Positions 4,028 through 54,988 of a stretch of DNA of 64,000 nucleotides are shown in pieces. Source of the stretch: Oryzisolibacter propanilivorax (GTDB lineage: Bacteria > Pseudomonadota > Gammaproteobacteria > Burkholderiales > Burkholderiaceae_C); assembly GCF_900103645.1 (NCBI RefSeq), contig NZ_FNHP01000005.1, forward strand, positions 248,001 to 312,000, read 5' to 3'. The notes under the pieces are model-generated. The model searched no databases. It saw only the letters and a list, made by a program, of their open reading frames with translations, and had not been told where the DNA came from. How positions within the stretch are numbered: position 1 is the stretch's first letter; each line of letters starts with the position of its first letter. A program made the position numbers and the translations under genes.

Positions 4028-4068
4028 AATAAAGGGCTGAAGGCCAAAACAGCCTTCAGCCCTTTATT
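4028..4068. terminator. Bidirectional intrinsic terminator
   Basis: A perfect 17-bp inverted repeat (4028-4044 pairs with 4052-4068; AATAAAGGGCTGAAGGC) with a 7-base loop. Because the stem ends in AATAAA/TTTATT, the transcript carries a U-rich tail in either direction. It sits between the convergent lipoprotein gene and aspA and overlaps a copy of the palindromic repeat family. Confidence 0.8.
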
Positions 4069-4102
4069 TATATAGGCGCTTAGCTCCTTTTTTTATAGCA
4101 AA
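4045..4102 (-). repeat. Palindromic intergenic element, copy 1
   Basis: Reads on the minus strand as GCTATAAAAAAAGGAGC..GCGCC..AAGGGCTGAAGGC..TTTT, matching the element found throughout the window. It abuts the aspA stop codon and contributes one arm of the terminator at 4028-4068. Confidence 0.65.
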
Positions 4103-11218: not shown

Positions 11219-11278
11219 AGTGTTCTGGTTTTGAGTGTGGGGGCCGGGACTCGCCCCGGCAATCAAAGCCAAAACAAC

Positions 11279-25499: not shown

Positions 25500-25530
25500 G
25501 GCGGGCTCCTTCATCAGTGAACGTTGGACT

Positions 25531-25583
25531 CTGTTTTTGATAGCTGCCGGCCCTTGCATATCAAGGGCCAGGGGCCGTTTTTA
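25531..25583 (+). repeat. Palindromic intergenic element, copy 5
   Basis: TTTTTGATAGCTGCCGGCCCTTGCATATCAAGGGCCAGGGGCCGTTTTTA. The central GGCCCTTG-CATAT-CAAGGGCC is a near-perfect hairpin with T runs on one side and A runs on the other, so it can terminate transcription. It separates the thioesterase gene from the MDR gene, both leftward. Confidence 0.88.
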
Positions 25584-25601
25584 TCTAAAAACCGGCCGGC
25601 T

Positions 25602-30497: not shown

Positions 30498-32336
30498 TCA
30501 GAACGCCTCGGGCGGCGTGTCGGCGCAGGTCATGTCGCGCCGCGCCACCACTGCCAGCCAGGGTCCGATGCGCGGCAGCTCATAGTGATAGAAATAGGCT
30601 GCAGCCCTTGTTCTTCCACGGTTTGCAGCTCCTGAAAGCATAGCATCGGCACGCCGCACGGCACAGGCCACGTCCAGCCACTTCCAGGCCAGCACCACGT
30701 GCCCGAAGGCCTGCAGGTACGGCACGGCGTTGGCCAGCGCCTGCTGCGCATCGCCCGTCGCCCAGGTGGCCTGCGTGGCGGCCTGCAGTTGCTGCAGCGC
30801 CTGCGCCAGCGCATCGGCCCAGGCGGCCAGCTCGGCATGGCCCGAATCCTGCGCGCGCTGGATGGTCTGGCCCACGGTGCGCCCCAGCAGCCGCAGCCCG
30901 GCGCCCTCCTGCATCACCACCTTGCGCCCCAGCAGGTCCTGCGCCTGGATGCCGTGCGTGCCCTCGTGGATCATGTTCAGGCGGTTGTCGCGCCAGTACT
31001 GCTCGACAGGAAAGTCGCGCGTGTAGCCGTAGCCGCCGTGGATCTGGATGGCCAGGCTGTTGGCCTCCAGGCAGTTCTCGCTCGGCCAGCTTTTGGCGAT
31101 GGGGGTCAGCACCTCCAGCAGCAGGCGCGCGTCGGCGGCCGCCTGGGCGCCGCCCGTGCGCGCCTCGTCCACCAGCCGCGCGCAGTACAGGTTCAGCGCC
31201 AGCGCGCCTTCGCAATAACTCTTTTGCGCCAGCAGCATGCGCTTGATGTCGGCGTGCTCGATCAGCGGCACGGGCGGCTGCGCGGCTTCCTTGCCGCCGG
31301 CGCCCACCGGCCGGCCCTGCAGACGCGTGCGGGCGTAGTCCAGGCTGGCGTAGTAGCCGGCCAGGCCCAGCATGGTCGCGGCCATGCCGATGGCGATGCG
31401 CGCCTCGTTCATCATGTGGAACATGCACCGCAGGCCCTCGCCCGGCTGGCCCACCAGGTAGCCGATGGCGCCCGCGTCGCCACGCACCGGGTAACGCCCC
31501 TCGCCGAAGTTCAGCAGCGTGTTCACCGTGCCGCACCAGCCCAGCTTGTGGTTCAGCCCGGCCAGGGCGATGTCGTTGTGCTCACCGGTCAGGCGGCCGC
31601 CCTCGTCCACCAGATGCTTCGGGCAGATGAACAGCGAAATGCCCTTGACGCCCGGCACCAGCCGCCCATCCGGCCCAGGAATCTTGGCCAGCACCAGGTG
31701 CACGATGTTCTCGGCCAGTTCGTGGTCGCCGCCGCTGATCCACATCTTGTGGCCGGTGAGGCGGTAGCGCGGCCCCAGCGGGTCGGCCTCGAAACCCGCG
31801 CCATCGGGCACGGCGCGCGTGGCGATGTCCGACAGCGACGAGCCCGCCTGCGGCTCGGACAGGCACATGGTGCCGGTCCAGCGGCCGTTGAACTCGTTGG
31901 CGGCGAACACCTGCTGCTGCACGGCCGTGCCGTGCGCCAGGATGGCGTTGCCGGTGGTCAGCAGGTTGGCGCCGATGCCGATCGAGGCCACGCCGAAGAA
32001 GGCGTTGGCCGCCGACTCGACCACGTAGGGCAGCTGCATGCCGCCCATCTCGTAGTCCTGCGCGGCGGCCAGCATGCCGCTGTGCGCGTAGGCCAGCCGG
32101 GCGTCGTGGGTGCACTGCGGCAGGATGACCTTGTCGCCGTCGAACCGGGGCTCTTGCATGTCCACCGTGCGGTTGAAGGGCGCGTATTGCTCGCGCGCGA
32201 TGCGCTCGCAGGTGTCCAGCACGGCATCGAAGGTCTCGCGCGAGTGGTCGCTGAAGCGCTCGCGCGCGGTGAGCGAACCGGCCTGCAGCCAGTCGTGCAG
32301 CAGGAAGTCGAGGGTGGCGCGCAAGGGACTGGTCAT
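30498..32336 (-). CDS. Acyl-CoA dehydrogenase, DmdC-like long form
   Basis: 612 residues from the ATG at 32334-32336; the frame is open further upstream but without family similarity. Flavoenzyme that oxidises acyl-CoA to 2-enoyl-CoA, passing electrons to ETF. The extra N-terminal helical region, MCLSEPQAGSSLSDIATRA and YRLTGHKMWISGGDHE (FAD/substrate motifs), EHADIKRMLLAQKSYCEGALALNLYCARLVDEA, IQIHGGYGYTRDFPVEQYWRDNRLNMIHEGTHGIQAQDLLGRK (with the catalytic Glu of the HEGT loop) and a C-terminal helical domain match the roughly 600-residue ACAD family including DmdC. Residues about 564-584 are encoded by a palindromic element inserted in frame. Confidence 0.9.
   Translation of the reverse strand: MTSPLRATLDFLLHDWLQAGSLTARERFSDHSRETFDAVLDTCERIAREQYAPFNRTVDMQEPRFDGDKVILPQCTHDARLAYAHSGMLAAAQDYEMGGMQLPYVVESAANAFFGVASIGIGANLLTTGNAILAHGTAVQQQVFAANEFNGRWTGTMCLSEPQAGSSLSDIATRAVPDGAGFEADPLGPRYRLTGHKMWISGGDHELAENIVHLVLAKIPGPDGRLVPGVKGISLFICPKHLVDEGGRLTGEHNDIALAGLNHKLGWCGTVNTLLNFGEGRYPVRGDAGAIGYLVGQPGEGLRCMFHMMNEARIAIGMAATMLGLAGYYASLDYARTRLQGRPVGAGGKEAAQPPVPLIEHADIKRMLLAQKSYCEGALALNLYCARLVDEARTGGAQAAADARLLLEVLTPIAKSWPSENCLEANSLAIQIHGGYGYTRDFPVEQYWRDNRLNMIHEGTHGIQAQDLLGRKVVMQEGAGLRLLGRTVGQTIQRAQDSGHAELAAWADALAQALQQLQAATQATWATGDAQQALANAVPYLQAFGHVVLAWKWLDVACAVRRADAMLSGAANRGRTRAAAYFYHYELPRIGPWLAVVARRDMTCADTPPEAF
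30586..30645 (-). repeat. Palindromic element inside the acyl-CoA dehydrogenase gene, copy 7
   Basis: On the plus strand: GATAGAAATAGGCTGCAGCCCTTGTTCTTCCACGGTTTGCAGC..TAGCA. The stretch AGCCCTTGTTCTTCCACGG differs at one base of 19 from the intergenic copy at 44366-44425, and the outer arms also align. It is read in frame as LSGAANRGRTRAAAYFYHY, just before the conserved ELPRIGPWL end of the protein. Confidence 0.8.
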
Positions 32337-33266: not shown

Positions 33267-33314
33267 GGGCCGGCGCGCACGGGTGGCTGCCGGGTTGGCC
33301 GGCGCGCTTTTGAG

Positions 33315-33370
33315 GTTTTTTTGGCCTTCCGCCCATACTGGACAAGCGCGGGCAGCTATCAAAAGCAAAG
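33315..33370 (-). repeat. Palindromic intergenic element, copy 8
   Basis: On the minus strand: TTTGCTTTTGATAGCTGCCCGCGCTTGTCCAGTATGGGCGGAAGGCCAAAAAAACC. It lies between the convergent VOC and thiolase genes, next to the thiolase terminator. Confidence 0.8.
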
Positions 33371-33379
33371 CAAAACAAA

Positions 33380-41725: not shown

Positions 41726-41780
41726 AAAAATGGCCACGGGCCCATATGGATAAAGGGCCTGCAGCTATCAAATATGAAGC
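41726..41780 (-). repeat. Palindromic intergenic element, copy 9
   Basis: On the minus strand: TTGCTTCATATTTGATAGCTGCAGGCCCTTTATCCATATGGGCCCGTGGCCATTTTT. It lies between the VOC protein stop and the FAH-family start within the catabolic operon. It shares CCCATATGGATAAAGGGC exactly with the copy inside selO. Confidence 0.9.
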
Positions 41781-53494: not shown

Positions 53495-54988
53495 ATGCCG
53501 CGCATGCACAGCCCGACCCTGGACCACCCCGCAACCGCGCCCTGGCGCCCCGACTGGCAGCCCGGCTTCGCCGCGCTGGGGCCGGCCTTCGTGCGCGAGG
53601 TGCTGCCCACCCCCCTGCCCGCGCCGCACTGGGTCGGCACCAGTCCGGAGGTGGGCGTGCTGCTGGGCCTGCCGCCGGACTGGCAGCAATCGGATGCGCT
53701 GCTGCAAGCGTTCACCGGCAACGCGCTGCTGCCGGGCAGCCGGCCGCTGGCCAGCGTCTACAGCGGACACCAGTTCGGCGTGTGGGCCGGGCAGCTGGGC
53801 GACGGGCGCGCACTGCTGCTAGGCGAGGTGAATGGCCAGGAAATCCAGCTCAAGGGCAGCGGCCGCACGCCGTACTCGCGCATGGGCGATGGCCGCGCGG
53901 TGCTGCGCTCGTCGATCCGTGAGTTCCTGTGCAGCGAGGCCATGCACGCGCTGGGCGTGCCGACCACGCGCGCGCTGTGCGTGACCGGCTCGCCGGCGCT
54001 GGTGCCGCGCGAGGAGATCGAGAGCGCCGCCGTGGTCACGCGTGTGGCGCCGAGCTTCATCCGCTTCGGGCATTTCGAGCACTTCGCCGCGCGCCGGCAG
54101 TACGACGACCTGCGCCGGCTGGCCGATTTCGCCATCGACTGCTGGTACCCGCAGTGCCGCGTTGCTGGAGACACGACCGGGCGCGCCACCTACGCCGCCT
54201 TCCTGCAGGCGGTCAGCCAGCGCACGGCACGGCTGGTGGCGCACTGGCAGGCAGTGGGTTTCTGCCACGGCGTGCTGAACACAGACAACATGAGCATCCT
54301 GGGCCTGACGCTGGACTACGGGCCATTCCAGTTCCTGGACGGGTTCGATCCCGGCCACATCTGCAACCACAGCGACAACCAGGGCCGCTACGCCTTCGAC
54401 CGCCAGCCGGCCGTGTGCTGGTGGAACCTGCACTGCCTGGCGCAGGCGCTGATGCCGCTGATCGACGACGCCCAGGCGGCCGAGGGCGCGTTGGCCGGCT
54501 ACGAGGCCGATTTCACCGCCGCCTATCTGGAGCTGATGCGCGCCAAGCTGGGCTTGGCGCAACCGCGTGAGGGCGACGCGGCGCTGGTGCAGCGTGTGCT
54601 GTCCGTGCTGGCCGACGAGGAGGTGGACTGGACCATCTTCTGGCGCCGCCTGTCGCACGCCACGGCCACGCAGGACTTTGAGCCCGTGCGCGACCTCTTC
54701 GTGCAGCGCAGCGGCATAGACGCCTGGTTGCTATCTTTTCAAGAGCTTCATGCCCATATGGATAAAGGGCTGGCGGCCGATTTGATGCTGAAAAGCAACC
54801 CAAAATTCGTGCTGCGCAACTACCTGGCCGAGCAGGCCATCGCCGAGGCGAAACTTGGGCGCCTGGGCGAACTCCAAACCCTGCAGACGCTGCTGGCGCG
54901 GCCCTTCGACGAGCATCCCGGCTTCGAGGGCCACGCCGGCTTTCCGCCCGACTGGGCTTCCCGCATCTCCATCAGCTGTTCCTCATGA
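53495..54988 (+). CDS. selO: Protein adenylyltransferase SelO
   Basis: 497 residues from ATG 53495 (an alternative ATG at 53504 would remove three residues). SelO is a pseudokinase that transfers AMP to Ser, Thr or Tyr of target proteins during oxidative stress. [66 protein letters not shown] (about 119-156), [21 protein letters not shown] (about 262-282; the DNMS and DYGPF active-site residues) and the VNPKYVLRNYL-type motif (here [15 protein letters not shown]) identify it. The C-terminus is SCSS instead of ending in selenocysteine, as usual in bacteria. Residues about 412-432 come from an inserted palindromic element. Confidence 0.93.
54728..54790 (+). repeat. Palindromic element inside selO, copy 11
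   Basis: TTGCTATCTTTTCAAGAGCTTCATGCCCATATGGATAAAGGGCTGGCGGCCGATTTGATG. The 18-base CCCATATGGATAAAGGGC is identical to the intergenic copy at 41726-41780, and the outer TTGCTATC and GGCCGATTT parts match the family. It is read in frame ([20 protein letters not shown]) immediately before the conserved [10 protein letters not shown] motif. Confidence 0.85.

Follow-up and report, generated by a model that had tools for sequence, protein, structure and literature searches.

A translated copy of a short dispersed repeat in selO of Oryzisolibacter propanilivorax, with a core that follows the genome and arms that mainly follow descent

Introduction

How does a repeat that lies mostly between genes come to be read as protein inside a conserved enzyme, and what becomes of it there? 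The question is raised by a 64,000-nucleotide stretch of the Oryzisolibacter propanilivorax genome (hereafter the window), in which the gene for the protein adenylyltransferase SelO contains, in frame, a copy of a dispersed and largely intergenic element. The initial annotation read it as a mobile insertion that had lengthened the protein in this genome only, at a tolerant surface loop, and likened it to the RPE of Rickettsiales. Short bacterial repeats have mostly been studied as movers or scars. In the family described here, old positions are common to several genera and the core changes in concert among the copies of each genome, translated copies included.

A 67-bp repeat family in the window and the genome

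A model of the repeat, R1, was built from a gap-free 67-base alignment of 30 copies from the same genome (G000), the selO copy being excluded. Its search of the window returned 12 full-length 67-bp copies, 10 of them from the building set, with three weak matches (E 0.002 to 0.34) left unused. Besides the copy in selO, these are:

4034..4100, minus strand: element copy, 45.8 bits
11160..11226, plus strand: element copy, oriented opposite to the copy at 11271 and separated from it by 44 bp, 50.4 bits
11271..11337, minus strand: element copy, 61.1 bits
15226..15292, plus strand: element copy, 59.8 bits
25527..25593, plus strand: intergenic copy immediately upstream of an oxidoreductase gene, 65.7 bits
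28476..28542, minus strand: element copy, 62.7 bits
30579..30645, minus strand: second in-frame copy within a gene, near the C-terminus of an acyl-CoA dehydrogenase-like gene and outside the R1 building set, 33 bits (NCBIfam acyl-CoA dehydrogenase models match below their cut-offs)
33306..33372, minus strand: element copy, 51.5 bits
41715..41781, minus strand: copy with the same 18-base core as the selO copy, between coding stretches on the same strand, 73.1 bits
44359..44425, minus strand: element copy between two genes on the same strand (from open reading frames), 59.0 bits
63057..63123, minus strand: element copy, 59.3 bits

The oxidoreductase gene beside the copy at 25527..25593 is presumably curA; the copy occupies the same position in three related genomes (G002, G003 and G006), and lies about 145 bases further out in a fourth (G008).

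Among 2211 first-look candidates in the genome, 150 were scored, all of which match R1 at E ≤ 1.6e-7, with the selO copy outside this set. The family therefore has at least 150 copies in the genome, and the density in the window, about one per 5 kb, makes hundreds likely. A survey covered 149 distinct copies in 326 kb of the genome, overlaps included; it took 30 plus 100 of the 150 places as loci and left out 20, some of them within the window. The repeat is AT-richer than its surroundings, with a mean GC content of 0.455 over the 149 copies against 0.699 for the window. Its consensus folds into only four pairs, and the ends of the 67-column alignment, on reading, lack the terminal inverted-repeat complementarity of a MITE. 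A search of the window against Rfam gave no match at the gathering score, and with E up to 1 a single match, to mir-1199 (E 0.62), which lies off the copies.

Of 40 genomes searched, 14 (G000 included) have R1 matches at E 1e-6, and all 14 are among the 24 of the same family, which we call Comamonadaceae after the named relatives among the SelO loci; none of the 16 genomes of other families has a match at this threshold.

The copy in selO

The features of the host gene and of its copy are as follows:

53504..54988, plus strand: selO, protein adenylyltransferase SelO, host of the in-frame copy, the start codon being a choice within a longer open frame (open reading frame; Pfam PF02696, E 2.8e-128; matches to SelO in the PDB)
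54729..54795, plus strand: full-length 67-bp element, in frame in selO (R1 positions 1–67, 54.6 bits, E 5.6e-13)
54729..54748, plus strand: left arm, R1 positions 1–20, mainly inherited by descent (ortholog versus paralog identity at five loci)
54749..54772, plus strand: core, R1 positions 21–44, in the dialect of its own genome and with the loop inverted relative to the arms (five-locus comparison; inverted class)
54753..54770, plus strand: exact 18-base core noted at the outset, CCCATATGGATAAAGGGC (exact match)
54773..54795, plus strand: right arm, R1 positions 45–67 (ortholog versus paralog identity at five loci)

The reading frame is open through the copy, as expected from the proposal that a mostly intergenic element is here translated. 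The copy is real, at 54.6 bits, and its extent has shifted from the 54728–54790 first given to the 67 bp of the element. The 18-base core is shared exactly between 54753–54770 and 41741–41758, with none expected in 100 shuffles, and with up to two mismatches CCCATATGGATAAAGGGC occurs at 38 places in the genome against none for a reversed control. Both outer arms, said to be shared with this copy 13 kb away, do match it, but only as the reverse complement. The 18-mer matches the 41.7-kb copy on the plus strand and the arms do not, because in selO the core lies the other way round between its arms.

The addition of about 20 residues to SelO did not survive comparison with other proteins. From the tryptophan of a DAW motif to an NPK motif there are 23 residues in all carriers of element-like DNA that have that tryptophan, and also in five of nine non-carriers, the other four having 17, 21, 25 and 25 (two loci, L013 and L014, were counted by eye, and one carrier, L028, lacks the tryptophan). 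Relatives without the repeat are thus of equal length here, and the two solved chains compared (6eac and 9jym) are 2–3 residues longer than the window protein at the segment. The site is not just the expected surface loop: the predicted structure has a helix at residues 402–416, a turn and a second helix at 421–431, with pLDDT of 89–94 over residues 401–430, and by residue numbering the variable core of the copy encodes the turn and its borders.

Carriage among SelO orthologues

Fifty-two of 60 genomes yielded a SelO relative, and R1 matches many selO orthologues at the same in-frame place. Each gene was compared with 3000 synonymous recodings. None reaches the observed score in 12 of the 24 testable genes and one in 3000 does so in two more, so that 14 of 24, the window's own gene included and 11 genera represented, have element-like DNA beyond codon expectation; in none of these 14 loci does another position attain the observed score. 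Of the remaining genes, two have p 0.006 (L019, and L031 with a strongly negative score) and eight behave as their recodings do. Six of the 30 SelO loci had no motif match and were scored only in a larger set of 109 loci, which comprises 41 carriers, four borderline cases and 64 non-carriers. The suggestion that the insertion exists only here is accordingly withdrawn. The initial annotation had further held that homologous residues lacking repeat-like DNA in most relatives would point to convergence or to an ancient insertion; the residues are indeed present, but in many relatives the repeat-like DNA is present with them.

Named loci (80, obtained with the alignment query A4, a single-protein query of the named genomes having returned no relative) place carriers in Acidovorax, Polaromonas, Rhodoferax, Simplicispira, Variovorax, Comamonas, Ottowia and one Rubrivivax. 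Non-carriers comprise Burkholderia, Massilia, Ralstonia and Caldimonas, as well as some records of Acidovorax, Paracidovorax, Polaromonas, Ramlibacter, Comamonas and Hydrogenophaga. In the SelO protein tree deep support is weak and carriers and non-carriers are mixed, so gains and losses are uncountable from it.

Carriage in selO follows the genome-wide copy number. All nine relatives with at least 20 R1 matches and both kinds of data have a carrier selO, and the ten with at most seven matches comprise eight non-carriers, one borderline case and one carrier (the comparison does not include G000 itself or G012, G017, G021 and G023). One genome, G016, has a carrier selO and a single R1 match.

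Because the protein is of equal length in relatives and 14 of 24 genes have element-like DNA at this position, the selO segment is the product of an old event, one that behaves as a replacement and not as a lengthening insertion.

Copies in other genes

The selO copy is one of several. With relaxed coding thresholds, under which the count may be too low or include a weak case, 11 of the 149 surveyed copies lie in frame in open reading frames with coding character on both sides; under stricter thresholds one flank of the selO copy, and one of the acyl-CoA dehydrogenase copy, counts as noncoding. The hosts are the KDO transferase WaaA, GluQRS, PutA (proline and aldehyde dehydrogenase), HemD, ComEC, SelO, a GntR/aminotransferase protein, an ABC/Wzt protein, the acyl-CoA dehydrogenase-like protein and, with two copies on the same contig, an MmeI-like region. 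The copy falls between annotated domains in the PutA, MmeI-like, GntR and ABC/Wzt proteins. Residue gains are seen in putA, gluQ, waaA and hemD, which bears out the proposal of an RPE-like process within genes of Comamonadaceae.

In PutA the stretch at the copy has 28 residues against six in a solved PutA, the one protein with which it was compared, a net gain of 22. The GluQRS copy recurs at the same place, with element scores, in G002, G003, G004, G006 and G008, and weakly in G007, and four loci without it (L197, L198, L200 and L202) have 22–23 residues fewer; the predicted structure has a low-confidence loop at residues 159–167, within the insert (152–173). Two further GluQRS loci have stretches of insert length without element DNA: a GC-rich one in G001 (L193), and an alanine-rich one at the same place in G009 (L196), a genome without R1 matches, which may be a relic or unrelated. 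The WaaA copy also keeps its position across the genomes named for GluQRS, and the eight loci without it (L212–L219) have a net 7–17 residues fewer. HemD has the copy in seven of the 13 loci that cover the site, the window's own genome included (the G001 locus stops short of it and was not counted), with a net 7–10 residues fewer in the six without (G005, G009 and four genomes of other families).

In G007 the gluQ and waaA matches (L199 and L211) are split between frames near the element, through either decay or sequencing error. The copy in comEC (L148) is hosted by a competence gene itself.

A core that follows the genome

Copies retained at corresponding places in several genomes allow likeness by descent to be separated from likeness within a genome. 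The comparison set comprised 24 copies from five genomes at five sites, namely selO, gluQ, waaA, hemD and the gap upstream of the curA-like gene, where G004 is missing, its best match there being a copy of another gene. The five loci were chosen for a strong copy in G000, and the cores of G003 and G008 are similar. Further copies from the other genomes were taken from 20-kb stretches picked regardless of copies, and the dialect matrices rest on 144 copies in G000 and on 17 to 29 in each of the others.

The two arms and the core behave differently. Identity in the left arm is 0.728 between orthologs, 0.580 between paralogs of the same genome and 0.567 between copies that are neither; the right arm gives 0.688, 0.553 and 0.535. 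In the core the order is reversed, with 0.510 for orthologs, 0.631 for paralogs and 0.487 for neither, and the paralog value is reached by none of 2000 within-locus permutations. The core is best described by the matrix of its own genome in 21 of 24 copies (18 of 20 for the four genes only); the advantage amounts to 287 bits, where the permutations reach at most 173. The own-genome matrix is best for the left arm in nine of 24 (19 bits, as high in 26 of 2000 permutations), and for the right arm in six of 24 (33 bits, as high in none of 2000). The arms thus carry a much smaller, yet present, own-genome signal, and the split between arm and core is not absolute. A separate comparison of cores found the own dialect best in 12 of 19 rows, the G004 gluQ row being counted as a miss, and for the selO core in five of eight genomes.

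By position, the ortholog excess is about zero at 19–54 and is restored on both sides, and the paralog excess is greatest at 35–46 and less at 19–26; positions 47–54 are conserved in all genomes, and are therefore uninformative on where the tract ends. A core that is specific to the genome (approximately positions 19–46), between arms mainly inherited by descent, is the new result of this analysis. Homogenisation is incomplete, core identity within a genome being only 0.63.

The dialects can be read directly. The majority core letters are GGCCCTT..AAGGGCT in G000, CGCTTGATTCACGCCGACTGAAGG in G002, GCGCTTGCCCGGCAAGCGCTGG in G003 and CAGCGCTTGCCNGGCAAGGGTTTGAG in G004, and the translations differ by genome as well: in G004, GluQRS has QTLASQALTA, WaaA QTLAGQALTA and HemD QTLTRQALTA, and in G000 the corresponding peptides are LAHINKGPAA, SAHMKHGLSA and LVHMQQWPAA.

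The core loop also differs in orientation relative to the arms. In G000, 101 of 149 copies have one orientation, 27 are inverted (the class to which the selO copy belongs, relative to the 41.7-kb copy) and 21 are unclear. Inverted loops number 0 of 21 in G002, 1 of 18 in G003, 7 of 18 in G004, 0 of 6 in G007, 6 of 29 in G008, 7 of 20 in G014 and 6 of 37 in G019, the calls being weak where the loop is nearly palindromic, as in G003 and G004. The core of G002 is not palindromic.

Origin and upkeep of the copies

Our best explanation of these patterns, with a probability of roughly 0.5 as judged from sequence comparison, is a short mobile repeat of old standing whose cores, and only they, have been made alike by ectopic gene conversion. 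The selO segment would be a long-established member of the 67-bp, AT-richer family of Comamonadaceae. That family probably moved as a short element, landing for the most part in intergenic DNA and at times in frame within genes, and its copies were then kept at orthologous positions across genera, as seen at five loci. Ectopic conversion between copies would make the cores alike within each genome. The arms would supply the homology, conversion would not extend beyond the core, and the palindromic stem would permit the core to be copied in either orientation. Inside genes, conversion would rewrite a short peptide to the dialect of the genome, within the bounds set by the protein. As SelO is of equal length with and without the copy, an ancestral stretch would there have been replaced, probably by conversion too, begun where that stretch partly resembled the arms. 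Several points count against this explanation: homogenisation is incomplete and the arms have a small own-genome signal, the carrier G016 has a single R1 match, G009 has a GluQRS stretch of insert length without element DNA, inversion of a spacer between inverted repeats can occur without a donor, and selection by a trans-acting factor could yield the same pattern.

More tentatively, carriers may possess a dedicated system that locates several hundred 67-bp sites through their arms and overwrites at each a core of about 28 bp, in genes too, so that unrelated proteins such as SelO, GluQRS, WaaA and HemD would carry the same genome-specific peptide dialect; sites would decay once the system is lost, as may be the case in G001. 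This genome, of the same genus, has seven R1 matches, which may be contamination, and GC-rich DNA in its selO segment and in the GluQRS stretch noted above, as expected if upkeep of the copies had stopped.

A trans-acting factor, of the kind that acts on DNA uptake sequences (DUS), offers a different route to the same dialects, and one that we consider doubtful: a binding or uptake protein would prefer its own core, and biased uptake with homologous recombination would spread that core site by site, the flanks unmoved. DUS are 10–12 bases long, a length far exceeded by 67 bp with conserved arms; gains of 22 residues require an insertion step, and loops inverted relative to the arms are unexpected of a contacted site. 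Turnover of a core between kept flanks, the presence of copies both in genes and between them, and genome-specific cores do also mark DUS dialects, as far as the accessible text of PMC3630211 describes them.

Overwriting from a template is improbable. A master locus would make retron-like single-stranded DNA, which would pair with the arms of many copies and supply a new core; this would suit a genome-specific tract confined to the core, the arms as possible homology and the equal-length replacement in selO. A single template would leave less variation among the cores of a genome than is seen.

That the family is an ordinary RPE-like or REP-like mobile repeat, with recent insertions only and spread by a RAYT transposase, seems very improbable. 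It would account for in-frame copies in unrelated genes, but copies stand at orthologous positions across genera, and the transposase domain PF01797 is found in 30 of the 40 genomes, including genomes without R1 matches, and was not found in the carrier G002; the PF01797 locus of G000 has a single weak element match. RAYT was rejected as the mover, the presence of PF01797 being uncorrelated with carriage (genomes that have it without R1 matches include G005, G009 and G011).

The absence of any special process, the selO segment resembling the repeat by way of a conserved protein segment and local codon choice, is disfavoured and has very little probability. Aligned relatives do have homologous residues of similar length, and the protein alone raises the scores of recodings, to a mean of 14.3 bits for the window copy. 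Recodings nevertheless fail in 14 of the 24 genes (12 with 0/3000, two with 1/3000), no other position of those loci scores as high, carriage tracks copy number across the genome, and the selO core best fits its own dialect in the five of eight genomes mentioned above. Birth of the family in selO, which the lack of a length change there might suggest, is just as improbable, since the selO segments of non-carriers, other families included, are not element-like.

Relation to known repeats

Several described systems share features with this family. The palindromic RPE are short repeats found in frame in unrelated genes, where the peptide inserts are tolerated, and are about 150 bp long in the accessible text of PMC10969869. 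The present repeat likewise occurs in frame in unrelated genes and lengthens several of their proteins, but it has 67 bp and a four-pair consensus fold, lies mostly outside genes (11 of 149 in genes) and has a core evolving in concert; it is set apart from RPE by description.

BRE, according to the accessible part of PMC3110155, occur in Betaproteobacteria, including Comamonadaceae, are mainly intergenic with some copies in coding sequences, measure 75–91 bp with 69% GC in Bordetella, and number at most 29 copies per genome in the table of that paper. The present family is also betaproteobacterial, mainly intergenic and in part coding, and is set apart by description, not by sequence, having 67 bp, 45.5% GC and at least 150 copies. 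With REP and REPIN it shares the character of a high-copy short repeat lying mainly between genes, and it differs from those linked to RAYT in that PF01797 is unlinked to carriage.

The DUS dialects of Neisseriaceae are clade-specific versions, present in many genic and intergenic copies, that follow phylogeny (PMC3630211, accessible text). The family resembles them in a genome-specific version kept alike within the genome (own dialect best in 21 of 24), and departs from them in its 67 bp with shared arms, its length-adding copies and its inverted cores. PMC2755013, in its accessible part, has CRISPR as its subject. No description of the 67-bp family was recognised in the open literature on RPE, REP, BRE and DUS; subscription papers lay mostly outside this coverage, and the family may bear another name there.

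Copies within genes are fixed, alignable sites, and the upkeep of likeness among dispersed short repeats thereby becomes testable. They also suggest that protein inserts arise in an RPE-like way outside Rickettsiales; several of these inserts lie between annotated domains.

Two minor observations concern in-gene copies. On contig C16 of G000 the two copies of the MmeI-like region (L113 and L134) lie about 2.6 kb apart and may share one MmeI-like restriction-modification gene, with one copy between its N-terminal and helicase-spacer domains. In the acyl-CoA dehydrogenase-like gene of the window, the copy at 30579–30645 (minus strand) contains AGA, AGG and GGA codons that look, on reading, rare for the genome.
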